Shown piece by piece: positions 46,990 to 63,248 of a stretch of 64,000 bases of DNA. The stretch's first letter is position 1. Every line of letters begins with the position of its first letter. Both the position numbers and the translations under genes were made by a program. The stretch is taken from NCBI RefSeq assembly GCF_013839425.1, contig NZ_JACDNP010000001.1, forward strand, positions 434,001 through 498,000, in the 5' to 3' direction. The DNA is from Halorhabdus salina. GTDB taxonomy: Archaea > Halobacteriota > Halobacteria > Halobacteriales > Haloarculaceae. A model generated the notes under the pieces. The model worked only from the letters and a program-made list of their open reading frames with translations, was not told where the DNA came from and searched no databases.

Positions 46990-47062
46990 GGGCCGGTGGG
47001 GTAGCTTGGTATCCTTCGGCCTTCGGGTGGCCGTAACCGCGATTCGAATTCGCGCCGGCCCA
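46990..47062 (+). tRNA. tRNA-Pro (anticodon CGG)
   Basis: The 73-base cloverleaf is complete: acceptor stem GGGCCGG (46990-46996) with CCGGCCC (47055-47061), D arm with GGTA, anticodon stem CGGCC (47017-47021) with GGCCG (47029-47033) around a TTCGGGT loop (anticodon CGG), T stem CGCGA/TCGCG around TTCGAAT, and discriminator A. CCA is not encoded. A TATA-like AGTTAAAG lies at 46956-46963 and a T-rich end follows at about 47071. No intron is present. Accessory DNA begins directly after it. Confidence 0.94.
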
Positions 47063-47240
47063 CTTCTGCCCGTGTTTTCTGAGAGTCGAGGATAATCCCC
47101 GTATAGCTTGGGGTTCAGGTGTTCGATCACCGGTTTGGGCTGGGAGAGTCGAACATGACTCATGTTGCGGGTGGCGCTTGCTGGCGGTTTTCAGAGAGTC
47201 GGCGTAGTGAAAGTGGGGGTTCGGTGGTTGTTGAGAAGTG

Positions 47241-48335: not shown

Positions 48336-49109
48336 TTATAGTTCCGAGGCTGATTCGCGGTACTCAGAGTACTGGGCCTTCGCCCACGTAATCGCAGAAG
48401 CCGTGTCGTTGACAATTGTACCGTTCACTCCCCCATTTTCGTACAGTGTGATCCCTGCGTATTCACATGTCCCGTGTTCAATCAGCCAGAGCGCATAGGG
48501 AAACGGCTCATCGATAACATATATCTGGATTGTGTCTGATTCTATGAGGGATTCGAATTCGTTTTCATAATTCTGCTCTATCGCTTCCAGAAGGTCACTT
48601 TCGAGAATTAGCTCCAATTCGAAGTCATCATCTCGTAGACGTTCCAGAAGGTAGTCGAAATATTCGCGTTGGACAACGGGTGCAGTTCCAATCATGCTGC
48701 TTGCCTCTTCCAGTAATTCTGTGCCAGGCTGATGAGCTATATCTGGCGTACGGACTGATGAATAGACGTCTGCATCAGCGAGGAACGCTTTATCGAGCGA
48801 ATCTAAGGGCAGGGTGTTTAACAATGCAGTATTGCTTTGAACCTGCTTAGTGTCCGTCCGGTAATCTCGGTGAAATTGAAGAGCTGCCTGTCCTGCCACT
48901 GTCAATTGGAACTGCTGTCCTGCTGGTTGAGTTGGTTCGACACACCTGACATCGAGAAGCTCATCCATTGCCCGGTTGATCGTTGATCTGGAATACTCCA
49001 GTTCCTCCACTAGCTCGGGTTTCGTTTTGGGCTCCCCAGAAAGTGCTTCAACGAGCCAGTATCTCTTCGAAAATACATCACGCAACTGTTCTCCCTCCGT
49101 ACCTGTCAT
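48336..49109 (-). CDS. Winged-helix regulator, FilR1-like
   Basis: The 257-residue protein has an N-terminal winged HTH (LVEALSGEPKTKPELVEELE, YSRSTINRAMDELLDVRCVE, with wing LTVAGQAALQFHRDY). The C-terminal effector domain of the FilR1/methanogenesis-regulator type (ALLNTLPLDSLDKAFLADAD, ELILESDLLEAIEQNYENEF, YALWLIEHGTCEYAGITLYE) is common in haloarchaea. It is divergent from the exported hydrolase gene and may control it. Codon use is more A/T-rich than in the left half. Confidence 0.8.
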   Translation of the reverse strand: MTGTEGEQLRDVFSKRYWLVEALSGEPKTKPELVEELEYSRSTINRAMDELLDVRCVEPTQPAGQQFQLTVAGQAALQFHRDYRTDTKQVQSNTALLNTLPLDSLDKAFLADADVYSSVRTPDIAHQPGTELLEEASSMIGTAPVVQREYFDYLLERLRDDDFELELILESDLLEAIEQNYENEFESLIESDTIQIYVIDEPFPYALWLIEHGTCEYAGITLYENGGVNGTIVNDTASAITWAKAQYSEYRESASEL

Positions 49110-49289
49110 ACCGTACTAAACCAAATTGGCCTTTTTAGGGCTGATTATTCTCTTCCAGTACCTGAGAGAACATCCAGAACATGGTCACTTTCCCAGTGAA
49201 TGCATTTACACTGTAGATATCACAATCGCCATACGAAATGGACGAAGTTTGGACCCTACGTTACTGCTCGAAGGGGAGTGAGTGCTAAG

Positions 49290-50981
49290 ATGAACACGTT
49301 TTGGAGCCGACGTGGACTACTACGTCGTACTGGCACAGGAATCGTAGGGATGGCAATGCTCGGTACCGCTGGCACATCTGCTGGGCAAGAGGACCCGGAG
49401 GCTTCCATAACATTCAATGACCAGATATCAGACGGTAGTTCAGTCACAGTCGGGAAAATCGAAACCGAGGTCGAGGCACGTTTTATAATCCGTGATCAAG
49501 ACTCGAATGGAATTGGCGGCCAGGTTACATTTGACGCAGGAACTGCCGTTGAAGAATATGAAGTAGACCTCTCAACGGAACTCACAGAAGCAGAAACGCT
49601 TTCGGCGAATCTCTATGACTCAAGCGGCTCAAATATTGCGCGTGATACCGCGAGAATCACTGTTGGAGATCCGGGAGAGTTCGCTTCTGGGATCGGCCCC
49701 ACGCTTGTTGAAGCAGACCCTGCTGCGGGTTTCAATTATCCATACTTCCTCTACGCACCATCACGACCAACCGATAGCAGTCCCGGTTCAATCCTCGTTC
49801 AACCCAATAACAGCGGTCAAACAACTGATAACTTCGATACTCATAAGCAGTCTGCACGAAACCGGATTGAAAACGGAATCTCACGAACGGTCAGTGAACG
49901 GCTATCTGTGCCGTTACTTATTCCTGTGTTCCCCCGACCGCAAACAGATCCGGTGGACTGGCGACACTACGTCCATGCGTTAGATCGCCAGACGATGCAA
50001 ATTTCGGATGGCCCTCTCGAACGAGTTGATCTTCAACTCTTACGGATGGTGGATCACGCACAGGAGATGCTATCCGATCAGTCCTACACCGTTGACGATC
50101 AGATTCTACTGAACGGATTTTCTGCTGCAGGAAACTTTGTTGATCGCTTTGCTGTTCTTCATCCAGATCGTGTTCGATCTGTCACTGCTGGCGGATTGAA
50201 CGGGATGGCGATGCTTCCGCTTGAGGAAGTAAAGGGCCATACGCTGAATTTCCATATCGGAATCGCAGACGTTGAGGAACTTACTGGAGAGCCGGTTGAC
50301 TTAGATGCGCTCAGTGAAGTCAATCAGTTCCTCTTTATGGGCGGTGAGGATTCAAACGATACGATCCCGTACGATGATGCATGGAGTGAAGAGATGCGGG
50401 AAATCGCTCTTGAGGTCTATGGAGAAAAGATGGTTGCGGAGCGATTCCCATACTGTCAGTCTGCATACGAGCAAGCCGGTGTTGACGCACAGTTCAAAAT
50501 ATACGAAGGGGTTGCCCATAGTCCTCGCCCAGCAGTAGAGGATATCGTGGAGTTTCATCAGCGGAGTCTCAATGGAGAGGACGTGAGTAGCTTCAACCAA
50601 GATCTTGGCATTGAACCAACAATTGGATATACGACTGAGCAACCTGAGGTTGGAGAGCCAATTGAGTTTGATGCGAGTTCTACAGAAGTCAGTCGTGGAC
50701 AAATCCTCGCGTACACGTGGGAGTTCCCAAATGGCGAAACTTCGGCGGGTAAAACGGTAACACACCGGTTTGAAGAACCAGGTCAACACAGCGTCAATCT
50801 CAGTGTAGTCGATAATAACGGACGGACAGCTACAACAGAGACAACACTTACTGTGGGAAAACAAGCTGACCAACAAACCATCACTGATCTACGAATTACG
50901 TTACCCGGCGTTGGAGTCGGTGTGGCTGTGACAAGTGCTGCTGGAGGCCTCTACTCACTCAAAAACCGGTTACAAGACTAA
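49290..50981 (+). CDS. Tat-exported alpha/beta-hydrolase with PKD domain
   Basis: The 563-residue protein has a twin-arginine signal (SRRGLLRRTGTGIVGMAML), an N-terminal beta module (30-130), and a hydrolase domain with nucleophile motif GFSAAGNFVDRFA, an acidic segment near LFMGGEDSND, and GVAHSPRP holding the likely catalytic His. A PKD domain follows (about 440-540: FDASSTEVSRGQILAYTWEF, HSVNLSVVDNNGRTATTETT), then a hydrophobic C-terminal anchor. It may be an esterase or polymer hydrolase at the cell surface. ATG 49290 is chosen for the Tat signal. It is divergent from a regulator. Confidence 0.8.
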   Translation: MNTFWSRRGLLRRTGTGIVGMAMLGTAGTSAGQEDPEASITFNDQISDGSSVTVGKIETEVEARFIIRDQDSNGIGGQVTFDAGTAVEEYEVDLSTELTEAETLSANLYDSSGSNIARDTARITVGDPGEFASGIGPTLVEADPAAGFNYPYFLYAPSRPTDSSPGSILVQPNNSGQTTDNFDTHKQSARNRIENGISRTVSERLSVPLLIPVFPRPQTDPVDWRHYVHALDRQTMQISDGPLERVDLQLLRMVDHAQEMLSDQSYTVDDQILLNGFSAAGNFVDRFAVLHPDRVRSVTAGGLNGMAMLPLEEVKGHTLNFHIGIADVEELTGEPVDLDALSEVNQFLFMGGEDSNDTIPYDDAWSEEMREIALEVYGEKMVAERFPYCQSAYEQAGVDAQFKIYEGVAHSPRPAVEDIVEFHQRSLNGEDVSSFNQDLGIEPTIGYTTEQPEVGEPIEFDASSTEVSRGQILAYTWEFPNGETSAGKTVTHRFEEPGQHSVNLSVVDNNGRTATTETTLTVGKQADQQTITDLRITLPGVGVGVAVTSAAGGLYSLKNRLQD

Positions 50982-51029
50982 TCCAGCTCACGTAGTGTTT
51001 TCAAACTAATTTAAAAACACAATAGACAC

Positions 51030-51842
51030 ATGGGATTTCTTGGCAAATACGCAGCGTTTCGATGGGTGACCGGTGGTCGCGGTGGTGGCGGAGGTAGTGG
51101 CGGCTCTGGCTTCGTACTTATATTCGCTGTTATAGTCGGAATTATCGGTGTTATCTGGGCTATTTTCTCAGTCTTCTCCTTTGTGTGGAACCTTATCTAC
51201 GGTATCGTTCGACCGATCCTGATGGTGTTTCCCCCAGTTACCATCCCACTGGCAGTTGCACTTTTAGGATGGCCGTTTACCTGGCTCAGCCCATATTCTA
51301 CTGAGAAGACAGACGCCTTCCTTAACGGAACTGAAGACAACCTCTCATTTGGCCCATACGCGTTCTGGGCTGTGTCTTCAGTTAATATCATGTTCCTAAC
51401 TGGTGCTTATGATGCCTTCCCAGAACCGAATGGTCTGATCGAGATGGTAATTGGGCTAGTTGTAGCACTTCTGTTGCTGTACGGTGCCTATGAACTGTTT
51501 CACTTCCCATATCGAAGTTTCAAGTTATTACTACATTCGCCACGTGGTCCATTCTATGTCATCGCACTTCTTTCACCGATGTCAGCTGGTCTCATCACCA
51601 GTGCCTTCAATGTCTCTCTGAACATTGTCTTGCCCCTTCCAGAGTTGCTGGGATCGGAATTAGCTGTGATTGCTGGATCCCTCGTGTTTCTCAACACGAC
51701 GTACCTTGGTGGGGCGTTAGCTGTTCTATGGAATCAAGGCGTGATTCAAGCAAACGCAGATGCTGCTGAGAAAGAAGACAGTCGCATGGAGACGAATAGA
51801 AATACGGATACAACCACCGAATCCAGTCCAAACACCAACTAA
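51030..51842 (+). CDS. Multi-pass membrane protein of unknown function
   Basis: The 270-residue protein begins MGFLGKYAAFRWVTGGRGGG and has a Gly-rich lead followed by about six hydrophobic segments (from FVLIFAVIVGIIGVIWAIFS to LAVIAGSLVFLNTTYLGGAL) and a polar C-terminal tail. No motif suggests an activity. It follows the exported hydrolase on the same strand and is convergent with the helicase gene. Confidence 0.6.
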   Translation: MGFLGKYAAFRWVTGGRGGGGGSGGSGFVLIFAVIVGIIGVIWAIFSVFSFVWNLIYGIVRPILMVFPPVTIPLAVALLGWPFTWLSPYSTEKTDAFLNGTEDNLSFGPYAFWAVSSVNIMFLTGAYDAFPEPNGLIEMVIGLVVALLLLYGAYELFHFPYRSFKLLLHSPRGPFYVIALLSPMSAGLITSAFNVSLNIVLPLPELLGSELAVIAGSLVFLNTTYLGGALAVLWNQGVIQANADAAEKEDSRMETNRNTDTTTESSPNTN

Positions 51843-51989: not shown

Positions 51990-54530
51990 CTATTGTAGCT
52001 CTTCCAATAGCTGTATTGCTAACTGCTTGTTGAGGCTTCGGTTCGCATTCCCACAGTGGGGCGAGTGAATACAGGACGGGCACCCATCTTGACAGCCACA
52101 GTCCTGAAGCAACGTGAGCGTCTTCACAAGAAGATCATCGAGTTGCTCGAAAGCCTGACGTGTAAGTCCAGCACCTCCAGGATGACCATCGTGAATGAAA
52201 ACCGTCCCGCCAGACGTCTGGCCATGGCTTGGCGTCGAAAGACCACCAATGTCGCCTCGGTCGCACAAAACCTCCATAGGGAACAGCGATATCAATGCAT
52301 GTTCGATAGCGTGGAGAGCACTCAGATATTCCTCTTGTGACTCCGCCTGATCAACAATCATAGCTTCAACATCATCTGGGACGGTGATGAACAGGCCTGT
52401 TGTCTTGATCGATTGTGACTCCAGCGGCTCCTCAAACTCACACTCCTGAGGGGTGTCATCGCTGGGGTCGCTGTACCGCAAGTACCCTGTAACCGTATCC
52501 TCCACTGTAAATTCTCCTAGTGTAGCTTGTACGGTCATCTCATGCGTTTCAGCGGACGAACTCTCATACGTGTCTTCGATAGTAATGGACTTTTCTCGGA
52601 GTGCTCGTGTGTACGCTGCTGTCGGTGTCGATTCCAGCAGTGCTCGGTCCGATTCGAGGTCTAATTCGACTACTTGGTATGTTTGTTTCTGGTGGCGATA
52701 GATTGCATCCGGATGTGCATCCCGTACTGCAGCACCGAATTCAAGCGATGCGAGCTTCTCGTCCCGGTTTCGATCGATAAGATCGATCTCGCGGTCATCG
52801 ATCGCTCGAATATTTGTATTCCATTGCACGTCAGAGTCCGTGGCGCGCCACTGAATCCGGTCGCCACTCTCTACACGGCGAAGACGATCATTCACTTCTG
52901 CTTCTGTGACGATATCCGGTAGGTCGGCACCGAAATAGTCCTCATCACGAGGCGATAAGAAGTGATCACTTGCTGCACAGACGACGTGGTCCGGACGAAT
53001 TGAGTTATTTGAAGGGTTGACGGCAGCCTGTTCAGCACCTCCCTCAAACAGTTCGTCTGGATCCCGGATCGTATACTGGTCAAGTGGATCATCAGCTCCG
53101 ACAAGAACAACGAGACAGGTGTCTTCGCCACGCCCAGCTCGGCCTGCCCGTTGGAACGTACTCATTGACGTTCCGGGATACCCATCAAGCAAAACAACAT
53201 CGAGTGTCCCGATATCGATTCCAAGTTCAAGCGCGTTCGTACTCCAGACACCACGAGCATCCCCGCTGCGAAGTTCCTCTTCAAGTTTGAGGCGACGACC
53301 GGTATTCAGCGCGGCATGATACGCGTGGGTGCTGTCTGCGAGATCATCTTGTCCCCGGTTACGCAGCATTCTGTCCGCCCAATCCACATACTGCTCTGTT
53401 CCCTGTCTGGCAGCAGTGAAGACCAGCGTCTGATATCCTCTGGTTACGAGATCACAGAACAAACGCACCGATTCAACGTGGTGTGAGCGTCGTTCTCCGC
53501 CGACTACTTCCTGATGAGAGGGGAGCGCAACCTCGTCAGGGGAATCCGAGGACTCACTTGTTTCAGATTGTGTATCAGTCGTCGAACTCGATTCGGTATC
53601 GATAGCCGCTGCATTCTTCTCGGGCGGATGTTCGTCATGGCCAGCACGGACAGTGCCGTCCGGGCTGACAGCTGGATCCGGAATCGACTGATCCTGGTCA
53701 GCGTCCTGCTTGAGTGGCGGGTTCCAGAATAGCCAGTGTCGATCTCCCGACGCACTACCGTCATCATCCACAAGTTCGAACGTAGGTTCCTTCTGTCCCG
53801 TAACGGTTGACGCATGCTCAACAGGGTTTCCGATCGTCGCTGAACAACAGATGTACTGTGGCGACGAATCGTAGTAGTCACACAACCGGTTGAGCCGTCG
53901 GAAGATCAGCGATGCATGGCTTCCAAAGACTCCACGGTACATGTGGACCTCATCAATAACTACGGTATCCAATTGCTGGAACAACCACCGCCAGTGATTC
54001 TTCCCATGAGCGTACGGGAGGAGACTAAGATGGAGTTGGTCGATCGTTGTGAGAAGAATATCGGGCTGTGTCTGTCTGATTTCCTTTCGATCTGGTTTGG
54101 ATGTTTCCCCTGTTTGAACGCCGATATCAATCGAAGTATCGAACCCCAACTCATCATCAAACACCTCAAATGTATCTGCCTGATCGTTGATGAGCGCACG
54201 ATACGGTGCGATATAGAGTGTTTTCCCGGCGTTTTCGATCGCTCTCTCAATACCGGGTACGACGTACGTGAGGGTTTTGCCAGATGCTGTCGGTGTGGCC
54301 ACCACAACGTTCGACCCGGACTGGACTGCCTCAATAGCGTTCACCTGATGTGAGTACAGACTTGTGATCCCTTCCTGTTGTAGTGCAGACGAGAGCGGGG
54401 CAGAAACAGCGAGATCGTCAGTCTCCGCAGATTGGCCCTTTACGATCTGCTGATGAGCGATCTGTCCCTCGTAATAACCTCGACCCCGCAACCATTCGAT
54501 GGTGTCTTCAATTCCGGGTCGATCCTTCAT
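51990..54530 (-). CDS. DEXH helicase of the MrfA/Hrq1 type with DUF1998
   Basis: The 846-residue protein has helicase motif I ATPTASGKT (78-86), motif II VVIDEVHMYRG, motif III SATIG, and the second RecA domain with FTAARQGTEQ, TNALELGIDIG and QRAGRAGRG. The C-terminal DUF1998 region ends with four cysteines (CGCQDGCPSCIHSPHCGN), the metal site of MrfA. Relatives repair mitomycin-type DNA lesions. An acidic, disordered insertion sits at about 290-355. ATG 54530 (MKDRPGIEDTIEWL) is chosen as the family start; the frame is open to 54704. It heads the island's left arm. Confidence 0.86.
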   Translation of the reverse strand: MKDRPGIEDTIEWLRGRGYYEGQIAHQQIVKGQSAETDDLAVSAPLSSALQQEGITSLYSHQVNAIEAVQSGSNVVVATPTASGKTLTYVVPGIERAIENAGKTLYIAPYRALINDQADTFEVFDDELGFDTSIDIGVQTGETSKPDRKEIRQTQPDILLTTIDQLHLSLLPYAHGKNHWRWLFQQLDTVVIDEVHMYRGVFGSHASLIFRRLNRLCDYYDSSPQYICCSATIGNPVEHASTVTGQKEPTFELVDDDGSASGDRHWLFWNPPLKQDADQDQSIPDPAVSPDGTVRAGHDEHPPEKNAAAIDTESSSTTDTQSETSESSDSPDEVALPSHQEVVGGERRSHHVESVRLFCDLVTRGYQTLVFTAARQGTEQYVDWADRMLRNRGQDDLADSTHAYHAALNTGRRLKLEEELRSGDARGVWSTNALELGIDIGTLDVVLLDGYPGTSMSTFQRAGRAGRGEDTCLVVLVGADDPLDQYTIRDPDELFEGGAEQAAVNPSNNSIRPDHVVCAASDHFLSPRDEDYFGADLPDIVTEAEVNDRLRRVESGDRIQWRATDSDVQWNTNIRAIDDREIDLIDRNRDEKLASLEFGAAVRDAHPDAIYRHQKQTYQVVELDLESDRALLESTPTAAYTRALREKSITIEDTYESSSAETHEMTVQATLGEFTVEDTVTGYLRYSDPSDDTPQECEFEEPLESQSIKTTGLFITVPDDVEAMIVDQAESQEEYLSALHAIEHALISLFPMEVLCDRGDIGGLSTPSHGQTSGGTVFIHDGHPGGAGLTRQAFEQLDDLLVKTLTLLQDCGCQDGCPSCIHSPHCGNANRSLNKQLAIQLLEELQ

Positions 54531-54672
54531 CTGTTGGTTCTTGGAGATTGATACTTGTGAACTTTTGCGATTCAAGGGCTCTGTTGAAACCCTCTTTGTT
54601 AGACACCTTCCCTGGAGGAACAGATGAGAAGCCACCGAATTCATCACCGTCAAAACGGCCGCATAATGGTGA

Positions 54673-54870
54673 TTAGAGGATGTTGAAGTACTGAAGACCG
54701 GCAATCAGTAGGATGGCGACGATCAAAATGAGTTTCATTACCCAGGGTGGAACGTCTTTCCGAATTCTGAATGCCCAGTCCGTGGGGTCGGCCTCGAAAA
54801 CCCGGTTCCCGATGTCTGAGTTGCAATTCGTGTCGTACTCTATTCGTTGGAAGAACTGCAGGCTCTGCAT
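54673..54870 (-). CDS. Possible small membrane protein
   Basis: The 65-residue frame overlaps the end of the coiled-coil zinc-ribbon gene by 31 bases and ends in a single membrane helix (VMKLILIVAILLIAGLQYF). It may be a real membrane partner of the neighbouring genes or a chance frame. No family is known to me. Confidence 0.35.
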   Translation of the reverse strand: MQSLQFFQRIEYDTNCNSDIGNRVFEADPTDWAFRIRKDVPPWVMKLILIVAILLIAGLQYFNIL

Positions 54871-56006
54871 TGAAGAGAGCCTTTGACCCTCTTCAGAGGG
54901 TTATCTACGCTCAACACACTATCACATGAAGAACACTGGACGGTGTCCGTAGTTCCGATCCCGCTCCCGTATCCGAGAGTCACCGTTCGGGAAACTCCTT
55001 GTTCGACCAGTTCGATATCGAGTTCTCCCCGTTCGTACTCTACCTGTGTTACCGTGAGAGGAGTCACTCGAATATCCAACGCATGCCGCTTTCGGATTTC
55101 TTCCTGCTTTTGGGGAAACCCCTGGTCTCGCCGTTCGTGCAGAGTTCTCAATTCGGAATCAACCTCTTCATACTCAGCTTTTGCCTCTTTCCGTTTCTTC
55201 AGTGCCTCCACGCGATCGTTCTGATCACTGCTATTGATCGCTTCACTCAGCTCATCAATCTTCGAGGACAGCTTGGAACGTTCCTCCTCCAACTCTTGGA
55301 TCCGTTGTTGTTGCAGCTGCCGGTACTCTTCGACCTCTGCGTCCGCTGCTCTGGATGCCTCATTATGAACCTCATCAATTTCGTTCTGGATGCTCTGCAT
55401 CAGCTGATCTTGGGCTGTGCCGAGAAGCGATCGTGCGTCTGATCTCGATAATGAGAATTCCGTGGTAGTGGGAGAACTGTTCGTAGGTATCGACGTCATT
55501 TGAAGAAACGTCTCCTCTAACGCCGGAAGTCTCTGTTCCGAGCGGTGATCGATAGCGATGGCGCGAAGGAGTTCTTGTTGGTATTCACTGACTGTCTCGA
55601 TACTCACCTCGAAAAGGACCACAATCGCGGTACGGTCGTAGTACGGCGTGAACTGTATTTCCCTCACTTCGACGTCGCCTTGTTTAATCCACTGTGGAAT
55701 CACTACGTCGTCCTGATCGGCTTCTATCGATATTTTCCCGGTAGGGCGACGCTCAGCTGCCTCTCTGAGGATTCGCTGGAAAACCTCACTTTCTGGATGG
55801 AGGGGCTCTCCAGTACTATCGTCGTCTCTGCCCGCACCACAAAGCAGCGATAGGCTGCCTGCCGGCAATTCTGTATCCCCATTGTCTTGGATCGTAACTT
55901 CCCAGGTGTCTCCTCGTGTCTCAATGGTGCCGCCGAGTGACTCTAAGTAGCGTTCGGAGAAGTCCTCAACGACGGACTGCGTGACCGCGAGTGCTTCGTC
56001 AGTCAT
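54840..56006 (-). CDS. Coiled-coil protein with C-terminal zinc ribbon
   Basis: The 388-residue protein starts MTDEALAVTQSVVEDFSERY. Residues 1-170 are a mixed alpha/beta region, 185-285 a long coiled coil (EEYRQLQQQRIQELEEERSK, DELSEAINSSDQNDRVEALK), and the end has a zinc ribbon (CSSCDSVLSV with CRACSSS). The 8-base overlap with the SNF2 helicase stop (ATGACTGA) shows it is co-translated with it. It probably binds nucleic acid and serves the helicase. No family is recognised. Confidence 0.7.
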   Translation of the reverse strand: MTDEALAVTQSVVEDFSERYLESLGGTIETRGDTWEVTIQDNGDTELPAGSLSLLCGAGRDDDSTGEPLHPESEVFQRILREAAERRPTGKISIEADQDDVVIPQWIKQGDVEVREIQFTPYYDRTAIVVLFEVSIETVSEYQQELLRAIAIDHRSEQRLPALEETFLQMTSIPTNSSPTTTEFSLSRSDARSLLGTAQDQLMQSIQNEIDEVHNEASRAADAEVEEYRQLQQQRIQELEEERSKLSSKIDELSEAINSSDQNDRVEALKKRKEAKAEYEEVDSELRTLHERRDQGFPQKQEEIRKRHALDIRVTPLTVTQVEYERGELDIELVEQGVSRTVTLGYGSGIGTTDTVQCSSCDSVLSVDNPLKRVKGSLQCRACSSSNE

Positions 56007-57753
56007 CGCTTTCTCCCAAGTCGAATCCCTCAAAGACGCCGTTGTTGAACTCCTCCAGTTTGTCAGCAAGCTCGCGTTGTTCTTGCAGATCGACGGCCAT
56101 GGCATCGAAGTCGTTCTCCAGATCGACTTCTGAACCAGCATTAACCAGTCGCTCGAAAATCTGGTCCTCGAAGCTTGTCCCTGACTCTTCTAACCGACTC
56201 AAGATTGAACTTAGCTCGCCCACACTTTGTTGGAACAGGTCGATTTTGTGGTAGAGGCGTTCCAGTACGTATTCTTCAACAGTATCCTTTAGTGCCATGT
56301 TGAAGACGAAGACGTCACGTTTCTGTCCGATCCGGTGAACACGTCCAATACGTTGTTCAACACGCATCGGATTCCATGACAAGTCTAAATTTACTAACAG
56401 GTTACAAAACTGAAGGTTTCGGCCTTCGCTCATTGCATCAGTTGAAACAAGGATTCCACCTTCTTCCTCAAAGTCCTCCACGATCTGTTCTTTCTCACTA
56501 CTGGAGTGTCCACCGTGGAACGCGTGGACGGTATACCCTTCCGAGGCCAGGCGATCAAGCACTTGGCGTTGAGTCGCGCGAAACTGGGTGAAGACGATCA
56601 CACGCCCCATTTCGACGGTGTCACGAGCTTCTTCGACGATATCCAGAAGCCGCTCCTGTTTCGTTACTGTATCAATCTCTTCGATCAGATCCAGAATTGA
56701 CTCCAGTTCGTCCGCGTGGGTGAGTTCAGACTGCTCATGGAGTCGTTTCTCGATTGTTTCCTTGAGCGCTACGGGACTGCTAACGACTTCCTTCTGGAGG
56801 AGCATCAACACGAGCTTCTGACCCTGATCCTGGCTGTAGGCACCCTTGACGTAGTCAGAGACTGCCTGGTAGAGTTCACGTTCTTTTTGAGTCGGATCGA
56901 ACGTCCGTGTATCGATGGTTCGGTCCGTGAAGTCAATATCCGTGTCCTCCCGCCGGTTCCGAATCATCACCTTGTTCAACCGGTCCTGTAGCTCGTCCCG
57001 GTTCACCAACGTCTCCTGATTGCTGTTCACGAAGTACTGGTGGAAGACGTCGCGTGTGCCGAACAGTCCGGGACGGAGAAGCGAGACGACGTTATACAGG
57101 TCCGTCAGTTCGTTCTGAATCGGCGTCGCCGTGAGGAAGAACGCGTAATTATACGAAAGTCGGTCGATCAGGTCGTATCGATCCGTCTCTTCGTTCTTGA
57201 CGTAGTGCGCCTCGTCAAGAACCAAAACATCCCAGTCACGGTCGAGAACCGTCTGGCGGTGTCTCTCACTCTTCGCGGTGTCGATGCTTGCAATGATGTA
57301 GTCATGTGTGTCGAAGTCCTCGAATTCATCGTCGTAGTTGCAGACGAATTCGAGGCCGAACTTCTCCTGGAGTTCAGCCTGCCACTGTTTCGCCAGCTGC
57401 GCAGGCGTGAGGATGAGGACCGACTCGTCCGTCTCTCGAAAGTGCATCTCCTTGAGAATCATCCCAACTTCGATGGTCTTCCCGAGCCCGACCTCGTCAG
57501 CGAGAAGGGCCTTCCCGTCCATTTCGAAGAGCGCCCGATAGGCTGCATCCACCTGATGTTCCAGTAGCTTGACGGAGTTTTCGTCCAACTCTTTCAGCGA
57601 CCGAAGTTCGGAGTCCGGCTGGCCCGCTTGGAGACGAACAGCTTGGATGCTCTGTAAATGATCCTCCTCTGCACCATCCTCAGACAATGAATCGAGAAGA
57701 TCGTCCGCAGACTCGTGTGTGACCTCAACATCAACGAGGTCGTAACTTCCCAT
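55999..57753 (-). CDS. SNF2-family helicase
   Basis: The 584-residue protein has motif I LLADEVGLGKTIEVG (Lys92), motif Ia ILTPAQLAKQWQ, motif II VLDEAHYVKN, motif III LTATPIQN, motif V GILVSTDAMSEGRNLQ, and motif VI QRIGRVHRIGQKRDV. The latter two fit bacterial SNF2/RapA-type translocases, not DEAD helicases. It is the first gene of the unit with the coiled-coil protein and is divergent from the DUF499-like ATPase, with only about 140 bases between their starts. ATG 57753 is used; the frame extends to 57855. Confidence 0.88.
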   Translation of the reverse strand: MGSYDLVDVEVTHESADDLLDSLSEDGAEEDHLQSIQAVRLQAGQPDSELRSLKELDENSVKLLEHQVDAAYRALFEMDGKALLADEVGLGKTIEVGMILKEMHFRETDESVLILTPAQLAKQWQAELQEKFGLEFVCNYDDEFEDFDTHDYIIASIDTAKSERHRQTVLDRDWDVLVLDEAHYVKNEETDRYDLIDRLSYNYAFFLTATPIQNELTDLYNVVSLLRPGLFGTRDVFHQYFVNSNQETLVNRDELQDRLNKVMIRNRREDTDIDFTDRTIDTRTFDPTQKERELYQAVSDYVKGAYSQDQGQKLVLMLLQKEVVSSPVALKETIEKRLHEQSELTHADELESILDLIEEIDTVTKQERLLDIVEEARDTVEMGRVIVFTQFRATQRQVLDRLASEGYTVHAFHGGHSSSEKEQIVEDFEEEGGILVSTDAMSEGRNLQFCNLLVNLDLSWNPMRVEQRIGRVHRIGQKRDVFVFNMALKDTVEEYVLERLYHKIDLFQQSVGELSSILSRLEESGTSFEDQIFERLVNAGSEVDLENDFDAMAVDLQEQRELADKLEEFNNGVFEGFDLGESDD

Positions 57754-57896
57754 AGTCTCGTAGAGACAGGTTCGCGTGAAATACGTTTTGTGACCGACCG
57801 AAGCAGGCGAGCACGTCTGATTGGTCCTGAGAAGCGAGGATGTTCGCAGGACCATAGTGTTTATTGGGTGTCCAAGAGGTGTGTTTAAGTATTAAG

Positions 57897-60800
57897 ATGG
57901 CACAGACAGGATCCTTGTCGAACACCCTCGATGACACGGTAACTCTCAGCCGTGAGCTTCGGGAAGAGGGGCAGATCGATGGCCAGGTGAAGCTCTACAA
58001 CGTGGATGACGATGACGAGTTCGAGTCAGATGCGGAACTCTTCTTCGAACGAACCCTGATGACACAGGGGCTCCGTGAGGCGCTTTCGATTCTCCGTGAT
58101 TCGCTCACGGGCGATGACCCGCGTGGGACGCACATCCTCTACGGTCCGTACGGCAGTGGGAAGTCCCACCAGATGGTGGCGCTGTACCACTGCTTCGACG
58201 ATCCCGACGCAGCAGGTACGTGGGCAAGCGACTCGGTCGAAGGCTTCGACACGGCACTTCCCGACTCGGCGACGCCGGTCACAGTCGCTATGCAGAACGA
58301 GCAGTACGAGTATCTCTGGGAACCGTTCTTCGAGGCGCTCGATTACGATCCTGGAACGTTCAGTTCGGGCGGGTATCCCGATATGCAGACGATTCAGGAC
58401 GCCGTCGGCGACGACACGGTCGCGTTCTTCGTAGACGAACTGGAGGACTGGTTCGATACACTCCAGGGCGACCGGAAAAGTGCGAACAAAGCCTTCCTCC
58501 AGTCGCTGCTCGAATCAACGGCGCTCTCCGATCTCGAACTCTACACTATCGTCTCTGTTCTGCGCGAGGGCTCCGAGGTCCACGACATCCTGAACCGGGA
58601 ACAGGCGGTCGAGGTCAACATGAACAACCAGGTGGACAAACGCGAGGTCCTTCGTCACCGCCTGATCGATTCAGTGAACGAGAATGCTGCCCGCGAAATC
58701 GTCAACGGGTACTACGACGCGTACGACCAATCCGATCATGTCACCATTCCCGATGATCTGCTGTCGGAGATGCATGATTTGTATCCGTTCCATCCCGTGC
58801 TTTTGGACGCGCTTGAGACGCGGTACTACGCTGACGAGGATAACCAGAACACGCGGGGGATGATCTACCTCTTCTCGAAGGTTCTCTTGGAGATGCAGGA
58901 TCAGACGGATCTGATCACGCACGGTGATATCGACGCTATCGAGTTCGAGGACGAACTGGCGAAGATTAACTACGAGCGGTTGAACGCGGCGACGGGCGAC
59001 ATCAAAAGCCGCATCGATGAAGACGATGTTCCCCACGGCCGACGTATTCTGAACACGATCCTCCTGTACTCGCTGAAGCCGAGCGAGGGCGAGGGCGCGG
59101 AGGTCTCGGAGATCGTCATGGGTGCCTACCAGACAGGCGATCTCGTCTCAGACGTTGTCCTCAACCTCGAACGTCTCCACGGTGTCGCGTGGCATCTCCA
59201 CAAGCTGAACGGAAAGTACGCGATCCGCGACCGGCAGAACCCGAACGCGCTCATCCGAAACGCGGCCGTAGACGTCTCCGAGACATCGGCGAAGGCTGAA
59301 GTCGCGGATTTCATCACCGATATCTTCGGGTCGAACGCACACCCGGTCGGATTCCGGACGAACGATATGCGGGACATCCCAGACGACCGCGAGGTCAAGG
59401 TCGTCGTGAAAGACGACCAGTGGACGAACGAGGAGGTCGAGAAAGTCATCACGAACGATGGGCGTGGCCGGGAGTGGCGTAACACCCTCGTGTTCGTCCA
59501 ACCCTCGGGCGACAAGGCCATCGAGTCTGGGACACGGTACATCGATAAGGCGCGGTACATCGAGGGCGCACGGCAGGTCCTCGCCGACGAATCTCTCGAT
59601 GACGAAATCCGGACGTCGATCAAGGGTATGCGGGAGCAGGAGGAAAACGAACTCCGCGAAGAACTCCAGCTCCTGTACGGAGAGGTGCTTGACGGGAACG
59701 ACCTGCTCAACGACTGGGGACAGATGACGCCGATGGAACTCGACGTCTACGTTCACGATGAGGCAGAGCTGAGTGCGTCGAACATCGCGGACTCAGCATC
59801 TGCCGATCCGTTTGACCTCCAGTCGGACGTCTGGGCTATCGCTGAGGACCTTCTGGAGCGACGCGGGGAGATCTCGGTTGAGGACATCTACGAGCAATTC
59901 CTCCGCGACCCGGAGCTTCCGATCCCCGGCAGTGCGAACGACGTGCTAAATGCGACGGTGAAAGCGCTCTCGGACAAACCGGTGCTCGCCCGTGACACTG
60001 GTGGGTTCCGCGACGACCTCTCCGGCAGTTCGCTGGACACCGTCCTCGTCCAGCAAGACGATGTGGACGTATGGGGCGTCGATGACGTCGAACAGGAACT
60101 GCGTCAGCGGTTCGGGAGCGGAACGACCGCGCTCGATATCGGTGACTTCGAACTGGAACTCGTCGAAGACGGCGAGATCTGGATCGACGGCGACAGCCAC
60201 GACGTCGTGATGCGGGCCATCGGTCGGCTCGCTCGTGAGGAGCAGTACGTCATTGTCAAAGGGAACGAGATCCTCGATAAACCACAATCCGACGCAACGG
60301 TCCGAGACGTCGGCGGCGCGGAGGTTGTCGGTGCATCGTCCCTCGTAGACCGCATCGAGACGCACATCGACGACGACGGCTACGCGAACCTCGACACAAT
60401 TATCGGCGAGGTCCGTGCCGAGGAGTCGGTGTTCCTCCCGCCGGACGAGACCGAGTCTGTCGCCCGCGAAGCAGTCAATGAATTCCTCGTAGACGACTAC
60501 GTTCTGGAAGCCGGCGGTCGGTATCTTGGATCGCTCGGCGACCGCGACCCGACGACGGTAAAGATCGTTCCGACGGTACCCGAACGGATCGGCGACCAGA
60601 TCCTGGAGTACATCGAGGACTTAGAACCGGGAGACCAGTTCACGGTGAACAAGGTCACGGATCGGTTCGACAGCAGTGTTACCGAGTACATGGTGCGGAC
60701 GTACCTGCTGGAGAACATCGGGAAGGACGAAGAGCCCGAGTACGTCGTCAACACGACCGGTTCGGAGAAAGCCTCCGACTGGGTCCCTGGGTACCCGTTC

Positions 60801-61103
60801 CGGAAGGCAGACACGGAGATTCCCACGTGGCGCTTCGAGTACAACGGCGACGACGTCGCCGCGATGCGGAGCAAATGGCGGAACAACCACCAGACGGGAA
60901 GTGTCGATTACGGCGACGTCACGTTCATGTTGCCCGACCGCGAGGGTGTTCCCAGCGCTCTTCAGGGGACCGCCGACGTCGAGCGGACGCAAGTCAGCCT
61001 GACGCTGCGATCCGGACAGGACTACACGAAGGTCCAGGACCTCTTCGAGCGGATGCCCGAGGAGGCGTCAAGCCTGAAGATCGAGATTACCTTCCAGAAG
61101 TAG
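57897..61103 (+). CDS. Large DUF499-like AAA+ ATPase
   Basis: The 1068-residue protein has a Walker A GPYGSGKS (83-90) after FFERTLMTQGLREAL, which aligns with the FFxRTYLTEGLR pattern of DUF499 (COG1483) proteins. Walker B VAFFVDELED lies at 175-184. The rest holds conserved LYPFHPVLLDAL and later modules (DVRAEESV-type winged helix repeats, about 620-1000). DUF499 proteins sit in predicted defence cassettes with SNF2 helicases and methylases. BREX BrxC/PglY-like ATPases are the alternative. It is G/C-richer than its left neighbours. A TATA-like TTTATTG about 30 bases before ATG 57897 fits a leaderless start. Confidence 0.75.
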   Translation: MAQTGSLSNTLDDTVTLSRELREEGQIDGQVKLYNVDDDDEFESDAELFFERTLMTQGLREALSILRDSLTGDDPRGTHILYGPYGSGKSHQMVALYHCFDDPDAAGTWASDSVEGFDTALPDSATPVTVAMQNEQYEYLWEPFFEALDYDPGTFSSGGYPDMQTIQDAVGDDTVAFFVDELEDWFDTLQGDRKSANKAFLQSLLESTALSDLELYTIVSVLREGSEVHDILNREQAVEVNMNNQVDKREVLRHRLIDSVNENAAREIVNGYYDAYDQSDHVTIPDDLLSEMHDLYPFHPVLLDALETRYYADEDNQNTRGMIYLFSKVLLEMQDQTDLITHGDIDAIEFEDELAKINYERLNAATGDIKSRIDEDDVPHGRRILNTILLYSLKPSEGEGAEVSEIVMGAYQTGDLVSDVVLNLERLHGVAWHLHKLNGKYAIRDRQNPNALIRNAAVDVSETSAKAEVADFITDIFGSNAHPVGFRTNDMRDIPDDREVKVVVKDDQWTNEEVEKVITNDGRGREWRNTLVFVQPSGDKAIESGTRYIDKARYIEGARQVLADESLDDEIRTSIKGMREQEENELREELQLLYGEVLDGNDLLNDWGQMTPMELDVYVHDEAELSASNIADSASADPFDLQSDVWAIAEDLLERRGEISVEDIYEQFLRDPELPIPGSANDVLNATVKALSDKPVLARDTGGFRDDLSGSSLDTVLVQQDDVDVWGVDDVEQELRQRFGSGTTALDIGDFELELVEDGEIWIDGDSHDVVMRAIGRLAREEQYVIVKGNEILDKPQSDATVRDVGGAEVVGASSLVDRIETHIDDDGYANLDTIIGEVRAEESVFLPPDETESVAREAVNEFLVDDYVLEAGGRYLGSLGDRDPTTVKIVPTVPERIGDQILEYIEDLEPGDQFTVNKVTDRFDSSVTEYMVRTYLLENIGKDEEPEYVVNTTGSEKASDWVPGYPFRKADTEIPTWRFEYNGDDVAAMRSKWRNNHQTGSVDYGDVTFMLPDREGVPSALQGTADVERTQVSLTLRSGQDYTKVQDLFERMPEEASSLKIEITFQK

Positions 61104-61114
61104 TTCCGCTTCTT

Positions 61115-61327
61115 TTACTGGTCGGCGTCGGCGTTTCTGACTAAGGCTTCGACGACGATTTCGTCACCGTCCGCCTCATCCAGCATATCCCTCAGAACGG
61201 TCTTCAGTCGTCTATCGAACAAACTGCGTGGGTTCAGCGGTGTTAGTTCCGCTTCAAGCTCATCTCTGCTTACTGTTCCAGAAATCACGGAGTCTCCGCC
61301 TTCTCGTACTTCCAGCAAATCGGCCAT
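61115..61327 (-). CDS. Small hypothetical protein
   Basis: The 70-residue frame starts MADLLEVREGGDSVISGTVS and is acidic and helical (LFDRRLKTVLRDMLDEA). It lies between the DUF499-like ATPase and the DUF262 gene on the minus strand and is the only frame there. No family is known to me; an antitoxin-like or accessory role is possible only by position. Confidence 0.42.
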   Translation of the reverse strand: MADLLEVREGGDSVISGTVSRDELEAELTPLNPRSLFDRRLKTVLRDMLDEADGDEIVVEALVRNADADQ

Positions 61328-61409
61328 ATCGAACCATCCTCAGCACGCTGGATAGCCTGTTCGATTGCCGCCTTACTCAACAATCGATGGGAACGGTGTT
61401 AGTGTGCTT

Positions 61410-63248
61410 CTATCTGTCCCAGTACTCTGAACCCGGTTCGGGCCAGACCTCACTCGCTTGCTTTGCGAGCCACTCGCCACGCTCAGCAATCGTGTCTTCG
61501 TTCCATTCGTCAGGCCAATTCGTAACCAGGTGCTTGTTCAGCCGCAGGACTGTGTGCTCCTGAACCGCCTCTCGTTTATCGTCCCACGCTGCATTCGAAA
61601 TAGAGGGGTTTAGCTTATCAGTGAGGATGGTCAGATTCCCGATTCGGTCCTTTGCATCGTCACGTTCCATCCGTTCTACCTCAGCGGGCCGGTCTCCTGG
61701 GAGCGACCAGTGGGTGGACCACTTCTGCGGGAGAATATGCTCAATCTCCAGATCCTGAGTGAACTCTACCGTCTCGCTGTACCCGGTGTTACGCAACTCG
61801 CGTTCGATGGCCGCGAACACCATTTTGAGACGTCGCTGGTTGATGACGGCCCAGTACTCCATGTTCACCATCGAGTCCGTCAGCTTGTCGTCACCGGGCC
61901 AGTAGTCGCTCTCACCCTCTTTGCTTCGAAAGAATTCGACGACGACATCGCCGACGTGCTCGTTGTCTCGCTCCTTGAGTTCGTCCAGCAACTCGATGAA
62001 TATCTTGTTGTAGTTCTTCGACGTCAGGCGGGAGAGCATCCGACGCATCAGCCAGCTCTCGATTGCTTCGACGGCTTTCACCCGCTGTTCCTTCGGGATG
62101 TCCTCATGGCCGAAGATCCAGAGGAGAACCGGGTACGGCGTCGTCGTATCGAGGATATCCAGTCGGTGGAAGAAGATCCCTTCCCGAGACTCACGGTCGG
62201 GTTCAGAGATGGTCTCGTAGATTGACGCGTAGTAGTCGATGTCCTTCACGATCTCTTCGACCGAGTTGTCGGTCCTATCAAGGTACTTCCGGAACGCCGG
62301 GAAAAGCTTCTTCGCGCGGACCTGCTGGCTCATCTCCATCGTGAGCCAGTGCATGATGAATACGTCTATCTTCGGACGGTCGAGCCGTCCCTGCGAGACA
62401 TCGACGCGCCATTCGTCTTCGTCGAACTGCTTCCAGTACTTGTCGTGGAGGTCGCCGGGGTCGTCCTGCTGGATCGTCGCCTCTCGGAAGAGGTAGTTCT
62501 TGATCAGGTCGGCGGCGAGTAGCGGTGTTCCACGGGCGTTCAGCGTCTCGAATATCACCTGTGCGTCGTCGTTGGATTCGAGGTCGATGACGACGACACG
62601 GAGCAGGTGCCACATCGTCGTGACAAGCGCATCGAGATGTTCTTCGGTGGGTTCGTCTCCAGATTCTGCCCACTCCCGAATTTCGTCTCTGAAGTACCGG
62701 AAGCACTCCTCCAAGTTGTCGTCGCCATCGAGTTTGGAGTGCTCTGACTCCGGGTCCGAGAAGGTCAGCACGTCGATGAACGCGTCCTGATCGGCTTCGA
62801 TCGGCCAGACCTTCAGCCGGTCCGTATCGGTGGTGGTCAGATCCGTGTCGTTGTACATCAGCTTCTCCACCAACGACGCCGACTCTTCGTGAGCGAGATC
62901 AGTCGCCACGGAATGCACAGCAGACAGCAGAACTTGAAGTGTGATCAAGCGCTGCTGGCCGTCAATGATCTCACGCGTCTCCAACTTCTGCGTCGGCGTC
63001 GATTGCTGATCGAGGACGATGGCTCCTAGGAAGTGCGGGGAGGTGTCCTGTTGCGCTTCCTGTCGTTCGATTTGGTTACTCGCCCCTGCTTGTCGATCCA
63101 TCAGTTCATCCACGACGAGTTGGAGATCCTCCCAGAGCGGCTTCCAGTGTTCTTCCTCCTTCCACACGTACGGCCGCTGAAACCGTGGAACGACGTACCG
63201 AGTGTCCTTCCGAAAGATGTCCTTTAGATCGAGGGTGTCTGCTTTCAT
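61410..63248 (-). CDS. GmrSD-like DUF262 and HNH (DUF1524) protein
   Basis: The 612-residue protein has an N-terminal DUF262 domain (VPRFQRPYVWK at 20-30, EIIDGQQRLITLQ at about 93-105), a ParB/Srx-like nucleotide-dependent fold, a helical middle, and a C-terminal DUF1524 HNH nuclease (IEHILPQKW at about 510, GNLTILTDKLN). This is the combined GmrS-GmrD layout of type IV modification-dependent restriction. Full length suggests an intact enzyme. A TATA box about 30 bases upstream fits a leaderless transcript. Confidence 0.9.
   Translation of the reverse strand: MKADTLDLKDIFRKDTRYVVPRFQRPYVWKEEEHWKPLWEDLQLVVDELMDRQAGASNQIERQEAQQDTSPHFLGAIVLDQQSTPTQKLETREIIDGQQRLITLQVLLSAVHSVATDLAHEESASLVEKLMYNDTDLTTTDTDRLKVWPIEADQDAFIDVLTFSDPESEHSKLDGDDNLEECFRYFRDEIREWAESGDEPTEEHLDALVTTMWHLLRVVVIDLESNDDAQVIFETLNARGTPLLAADLIKNYLFREATIQQDDPGDLHDKYWKQFDEDEWRVDVSQGRLDRPKIDVFIMHWLTMEMSQQVRAKKLFPAFRKYLDRTDNSVEEIVKDIDYYASIYETISEPDRESREGIFFHRLDILDTTTPYPVLLWIFGHEDIPKEQRVKAVEAIESWLMRRMLSRLTSKNYNKIFIELLDELKERDNEHVGDVVVEFFRSKEGESDYWPGDDKLTDSMVNMEYWAVINQRRLKMVFAAIERELRNTGYSETVEFTQDLEIEHILPQKWSTHWSLPGDRPAEVERMERDDAKDRIGNLTILTDKLNPSISNAAWDDKREAVQEHTVLRLNKHLVTNWPDEWNEDTIAERGEWLAKQASEVWPEPGSEYWDR

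Follow-up and report, generated by a model that had tools for sequence, protein, structure and literature searches.

A probable haloarchaeal variant of the Hma and BREX-related restriction-modification-like systems with a two-gene helicase and McrBC

Do the helicase, ATPase and nuclease genes that lie side by side in a Halorhabdus salina chromosome form one system, and can such a system do without a DNA methylase? The window, that is, the whole 64,000-nt stretch analysed here, corresponds to C1:434001-498000 of a 2.86-Mb haloarchaeal assembly; the DNA just past its end is referred to as L003, so that L003:104 equals position 64104 of the extended window. A sequence-only reading had grouped five genes of the window, encoding a MrfA-like helicase, a coiled-coil zinc-ribbon protein (hereafter CC), a SNF2 helicase, a DUF499 ATPase and a DUF262/HNH protein, into an undescribed defence or DNA-repair system lacking a methylase. 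These genes are real and correctly placed. Read together with L003, the window probably contains the left-hand two thirds of a seven-gene antiviral system of restriction-modification-like type, in a chromosomal copy; the gene composition of this system is well supported, whereas its mechanism we infer. The features are as follows.

46990-47063, tRNA-Pro(cgg) gene, left edge of the low-GC segment holding the locus
51990-about 54533/54536 (start approximate), minus strand, MrfA/Hrq1-like DEAD helicase with MZB (DUF1998); PF00270, PF00271, PF09369 (82 bits)
54840-56006, minus strand, CC, coiled-coil zinc-ribbon protein of 388 aa; no Pfam family above cut-off
55999-56006, minus strand, end of SNF2 overlapping the start of CC by 8 bp, seen in the sequence and conserved
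55999-57753, minus strand, SNF2 helicase of 584 aa without fused nuclease; PF00176 128 bits, PF00271 86 bits
57897-61103, plus strand, DUF499 AAA+ ATPase of 1068 aa, HmaC-like; PF04465 39.3 bits (cut-off 23)
61410-63248, minus strand, GmrSD-type (DUF262/HNH) type IV-like nuclease; PF03235 (GmrSD_N) 132 bits, PF07510 (GmrSD_C) 90 bits
L003:104-2779 (extended window 64104-66779), plus strand, DUF1156 methylase of 891 aa; PF06634 34.8 bits (cut-off 24)
L003:7588-7971, plus strand, sp127, a protein of 127 aa; no Pfam or PADLOC match
L003:7976-9733, convergent with the methylase, McrC nuclease; PF10117 37.1 bits (cut-off 23.9)
L003:9733-11004, convergent with the methylase, McrB GTPase (P0010); AAA_5 and, by eye, MNMSD

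The apparent lack of a methylase turned out to be an artefact of the window edge. Indeed, a DUF1156 gene, the very type of methylase that the sequence-only reading had named as speaking against it, starts 104 bp beyond the window and is the next conserved gene after GmrSD. Its product carries DPFMGGG at residue 134 and DPPY at residue 543, matches the PADLOC model HmaB (8.9e-34) and, as part of the best overall explanation, is likely a methylase of the N6/N4-amino type. The DUF499 ATPase, with the Walker A motif GPYGSGKS at residue 83, matches PADLOC HmaC (2.1e-18), and the NCBIfam antiphage models for DUF499 and DUF1156 give scores far below their cut-offs. A methylase-free defence or repair system made of MrfA, SNF2-CC, DUF499 and GmrSD would agree with the absence of a methylase inside the window, and in Bacillus helicases of the MrfA family function in the repair of mitomycin damage. 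However, the DUF1156 methylase directly follows and recurs in homologous loci, the MrfA gene is kept only in near-identical Halorussus islands and GmrSD is replaced elsewhere, which makes this explanation highly improbable.

Comparison of homologous loci delimits the conserved unit. A CC search of 392 haloarchaeal genomes found 61 loci in 57 genomes at high similarity; in 52 of the 61, both DUF499 and McrC lie on the CC contig at a distance of up to 40 kb, and several of the loci without both genes are contig ends. At the genome level CC occurs in 57, McrC in 65 and both in 52 (odds ratio 258, Fisher p 2e-46, which overstates independence since the genomes are related). In a map of 50 loci, DUF499 is divergent beside SNF2 with the methylase nearby. 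The conserved unit consists, from left to right, of CC and SNF2 reading leftwards, DUF499 reading rightwards, a cargo interval, the DUF1156 methylase reading rightwards, a second cargo interval, sp127 reading rightwards and, facing it, McrC and McrB. The same gene order was confirmed on a complete plasmid of halophilic archaeon DL31, whose annotation lists an AAA_5 ATPase, hypotheticals, DUF1156, an AAA+ ATPase, a helicase and a hypothetical protein. A collection-wide scan (49 loci) met the CC family in Halobacteria alone, and a phylum-wide search returned it solely from the same order. In a divergent clade (L175, L177 and L178), two or three DUF1156 methylase genes surround DUF499 and McrBC; a first impression that this clade lacks DUF499 was dismissed, the gene being present further off. 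In L163-L173, a further haloarchaeal layout, a DUF499 gene (about 30% identical), an unassigned gene of about 310 aa and a DUF1156 methylase gene follow each other, with no recognisable helicase within the fetched 19 kb.

The five genes of the sequence-only reading do not, as a set, correspond to this unit: MrfA is absent from nearly all loci and the GmrSD slot is exchangeable. Among about 95 loci, the MrfA gene stands beside the SNF2-CC pair only in Halorussus L054, L094 and L095, near-identical islands sharing the whole neighbourhood, and was therefore ruled out as a component. With MrfA outside the conserved unit, the repair half of the earlier proposal lacks support, and what is left is best read as a defence cassette. 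GmrSD was likewise rejected as a dedicated nuclease of the system, as its slot varies or stands empty elsewhere. This slot, between DUF499 and the methylase, holds GmrSD in the window and an about 90% identical GmrSD in L058, L064, L065 and L066. Most related loci carry something else there, such as a DUF5677 protein (PADLOC DitA 7e-39), DUF3644, MTaX1-HNH, MTaX1-AAA, Fic, a transposase or a DUF6036 nucleotidyltransferase together with an HTH protein; in L050, L075, L077, L079 and L086 the slot is empty and DUF499 and the methylase overlap or abut. The interval between methylase and sp127 is also variable, containing here two proteins of 182 and 265 aa and another GmrSD. The 265-aa cargo protein (L003:3773-4570) has no Pfam match, and its C-terminus resembles HhH-GPD DNA glycosylases by eye. 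In PADLOC searches, sp127 gave nothing, and the GmrSD cargo of the window matched Orf5 (2.4e-88), mREase_IV (4e-77) and HEC-06 (2.5e-72). HEC stands for Hma-embedded candidate and HEC-06 has been reported with antiviral activity (PMC12988326), so that embedding of such a cargo in Hma-type loci is already known.

Within the unit, SNF2 adjoins CC on the same strand and the two form one operon, from which the DUF499 gene diverges. The eight-base overlap of the pair was described exactly (55999-56006), and the neighbourhood survey found it identical in 49 of the 50 homologous loci mapped, the window's own included. The one exception, L043, is a divergent homologue in which the reading frames overlap by 4 bp. 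Such conservation points to more than chance. SNF2 shows the motifs DEVGLGKT, DEAH and QRIGRVHR, and its best solved relative is RapA. DrmD is its best profile, at 282 bits against an NCBIfam cut-off of 950. Pfam detected neither a nuclease domain on SNF2 or CC nor an N-terminal Tudor or nuclease domain on SNF2. The helicase is distributed over two genes (584-aa SNF2 and 388-aa CC here) in all related loci mapped. Long reading frames that had suggested a CC-SNF2 fusion in some genomes proved to be CC joined to a zinc-finger array, SNF2 remaining separate. Haloarchaea also have loci (L195, L196) in which a DUF1156 methylase stands next to a one-piece helicase of some 1310 aa, so that the split form is a distinct lineage beside the one-piece form.

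The sequence-only reading had taken CC for a dedicated partner of SNF2 belonging to no family. The pair is indeed conserved and no curated family covers CC: Pfam, NCBIfam and PADLOC gave no family above cut-off and no meaningful PADLOC match. Nevertheless, CC is probably the separately encoded C-terminal half of a known helicase type, the RapA/DrmD/BrxHII-type SNF2 helicases, followed by a zinc ribbon. In BrxHII and RapA, this half comprises a degenerate REase-like domain and then an alpha+beta domain into which a pair of coiled-coil helices is inserted (PMC12839542). The AlphaFold2 model of CC (pLDDT 84, pTM 0.68) shows an a-b-b-b-a-b arrangement at residues 10-94, several strands at 113-153, a long hairpin of helices at 188-307, further strands at 310-347 and a CxxC...CxxC ribbon, and its predicted secondary structure agrees with that published layout (PMC12839542). 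In hhalign, the CC family alone matched the C-terminal parts of one-piece helicases with E 5.7e-5 (probability score 66), and with paralogues added the match reached E 4.5e-7 to 1.1e-6 (score 91-93), colinear over about 220 columns; the best of 30 block-shuffled control profiles gave E 0.01. The direct match between CC and RapA profiles is weak (E 0.02), and Foldseek with the full-length protein and with its N-terminal part, the latter in a poor model (pLDDT 63), returned no RapA and no match with E below 0.001. The assignment thus relies on the haloarchaeal and pooled profiles. A PDB sequence profile was discarded as a guide to the identity of CC, since all it matched were coiled-coil proteins, among them designed ones. 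CC evolves fast along most of its length (mean pairwise identity 0.62). Complete-plasmid records label it 'hypothetical protein', a likely misannotation corrected here.

Similar two-gene layouts occur elsewhere. A paralogous haloarchaeal pair consists of SNF2 and a protein of 675-1185 aa, with a 4-bp overlap in most cases; this second protein (L034:7329-10613, L036:7593-10970, L038:7637-11125, L041:4779-8336, L042:7652-10918, L045:7850-9877) is made of the CC module, a long Cys/His repeat array (CxxC..CxxH) and a conserved tail, and has no Pfam or PADLOC family. In several of these loci the pair has conserved neighbours of about 980 (ResIII helicase), 286, 340 and 298 aa. Plasmids of Nostoc and Calothrix (L184:4074-6843, L185:5821-8590) show a split-like layout in which a 569-aa SNF2 precedes a 346-aa hypothetical protein; by profile comparison these 346-aa partners are no more than possible relatives of CC.

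The relationship to RapA raises the question of whether the locus serves defence at all. A RapA-like SNF2-CC could act on RNA polymerase or chromatin, with the methylase as an epigenetic enzyme, in a regulatory or DNA-maintenance complex; RapA being the best solved relative of SNF2, and the paralogous pair lacking an adjacent methylase and an adjacent DUF499 of the window type, would both suit such a role. On the other hand, the distribution is patchy (57 of 392 genomes), plasmid copies occur and the locus lies in a segment of low G+C next to a tRNA gene. Moreover, the locus contains the restriction nucleases McrC and GmrSD, and the centre of the methylase is hypervariable. A purely regulatory function is accordingly improbable, and we favour the antiviral one. 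As to the segment itself, G+C drops from about 0.64 to 0.46-0.60 after the tRNA-Pro gene, which places the system genes in an island-like segment; no attachment repeats of the tRNA-Pro 3' end of at least 14 bp were found. Positions 48336-51842 encode a FilR1-type regulator, a protein of 593 aa with a PKD domain and one of 270 aa without Pfam match, and the Halorussus L054 locus is flanked by neighbours of matching size and order, suggesting that a larger block moved as one.

The right-hand end of the unit is formed by McrBC and sp127. McrC and McrB were present in each of 20 regions retrieved beyond the methylase, for the most part 84-99% identical to the L003 copies, and sp127 in the same 20, between methylase and McrC and usually close to the latter; in the window's genome the sp127 and McrC stops are 5 bp apart. 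The PD-x-DSK motif of McrC, of the PD-(D/E)XK type, is intact in 21 of 21 sequences, and MNMSD in McrB is a form of the MNxxD GTPase signature. Pfam found no modified-base reader domain (DUF3578, EVE) on McrB, only AAA-type and other P-loop domains. This fits direction of the nuclease by the complex; a reader of unrecognised type is possible.

McrBC with sp127 could nevertheless be a stand-alone system that merely shares a defence island with an independent Hma/BR-like neighbour. The two are convergent, with 0.6-6.5 kb of cargo between methylase and McrBC, and in 19 of the 71 places with McrC homologues no CC accompanies them, most of these homologues being 36-40% identical or on contig fragments; such distant McrC homologues do occur without the rest of the system. 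Against this stands the presence of McrBC and sp127 in 20 of 20 loci despite the changing genes in between, and the lack of a Pfam reader domain on McrB. Furthermore, SNF2, DUF499, McrC and McrB are similarly conserved (mean pairwise identity 0.92, 0.92, 0.89 and 0.90), and their distances are intercorrelated (0.70-0.90), with a rank correlation of 0.81 between McrC and DUF499, as for parts of one system. We therefore regard two independent neighbours as unlikely and the single system as the better account.

This single system is best compared with sets already described as antiphage or restriction-modification-like, in which DUF499, a methylase and SNF2 occur together (PMC12839542, PMC7641849, PMC8565338); HEPN-DUF499 operons had been described earlier (PMC3710099). 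The helicase-methylase-ATPase system Hma (PADLOC; PMC8565338) shares with it SNF2, the DUF1156 methylase, DUF499 and cargo between core genes, and in one locus HmaA (2.1e-56), HmaB (8.9e-34) and HmaC (2.1e-18) all match. In contrast to Hma, the helicase here is encoded by two genes (the PADLOC HmaA model is one protein of 1176 aa), no nuclease domain is detected on it, and McrBC and sp127 are constant. The BREX-related (BR) types 1-3 likewise combine DUF499, a DUF1156 N6-MTase and Swi2/Snf2 with auxiliary GmrSD/HNH nucleases nearby (PMC12839542), and the general trio is present here, PF04465, PF06634 and PF00176 all scoring above cut-off. Which nuclease Hma/BR systems employ depends on the subtype (REase fusion, HKD fusion or PglZ). 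Type 1 has an active REase fused to the helicase C-terminus in 79% of cases (PMC12839542), whereas Pfam shows no such fusion here; the HKD nuclease on the helicase and the stand-alone DUF3780 that define type 2 are both missing from the locus proteins scanned with Pfam. For type 3, PF08665 (PglZ, also of BREX) has no match in the whole genome, positive controls being detected, and the fast-evolving iSTAND domain gave no match with general profiles. The locus therefore fits none of BR types 1-3, and the main text of PMC12839542 makes no mention of McrB or McrC. Archaeal COG1743-DUF499-SNF2/nuclease-EVE operons, a predicted restriction system (PMC7641849), contain the same three core families, but there a PD-(D/E)XK or PLD nuclease is joined to SNF2 and an EVE protein is added, whereas in the present case SNF2 is split and the nuclease comes from McrBC. 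Unlike DISARM, the locus has no PLD-family DrmC, as no PLD match appeared among the locus proteins scanned. McrBC type IV systems share McrC with PF10117 and PD-x-DSK and McrB with AAA_5 and MNMSD, yet here McrB has no Pfam reader and the pair is genetically tied to a methylase-containing system. Finally, RapA, BrxHII and DrmD share the helicase core and, probably, the C-terminal half (degenerate REase-like domain, then alpha+beta with coiled-coil insert), but in the present locus this half is encoded on its own by a fast-evolving gene and ends in a zinc ribbon.

Contrary to the original proposal of a candidate undescribed system, the locus is thus likely a haloarchaeal, restriction-modification-like variant of the Hma or DUF499-centred BR kind, equipped with a split helicase and McrBC. 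The three-part core and the embedding of cargo are already known; the split helicase and the constant McrBC and sp127 set the locus apart from Hma.

The variability of the methylase bears on how such a system may operate. Its mean pairwise identity is 0.72, with a C-terminus near 0.9 and only 0.50 over residues 351-450, between the two motifs; its distances correlate weakly with those of SNF2 (0.24) and CC (0.13). The latter value, hardly a correlation, led us to reject CC as the partner that lends the methylase its specificity. As the restriction parts show no matching variation, the methylase may set specificity for both marking and restriction. As suggested by its DPF.GGG and DPPY motifs and its conservation profile, it would mark host DNA at a variant-specific site through the hypervariable central region. 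DUF499 and the two-piece SNF2-CC motor could, by family resemblance, work with the methylase in scanning or holding DNA and recognise sites that are not modified. McrC, whose catalytic motif is seen in the sequence, would then cut the invader, driven by McrB through a presumed coupling, and the exchangeable cargo beside the methylase (here two GmrSD enzymes) may provide back-up layers. CC would act as the regulatory C-terminal half of the helicase, encoded apart. This sequence of events and any role of sp127 are guesses. A more specific version, in which reader-less McrBC is steered by DUF499/SNF2-CC to DNA without the system's own mark, with CC as sensor or clutch and sp127 as coupling factor, is put forward tentatively, as one possibility that we hold to be somewhat doubtful.

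Hma and BR systems are widespread and their effector logic is unsettled. The haloarchaeal subtype, with its constant McrBC and its motor and regulatory halves already split, offers a tractable test of target choice, movement and cutting. In addition, with its constant frame and two exchangeable cargo slots it forms a natural inventory of defence genes in archaea, of which several lack any known domain.
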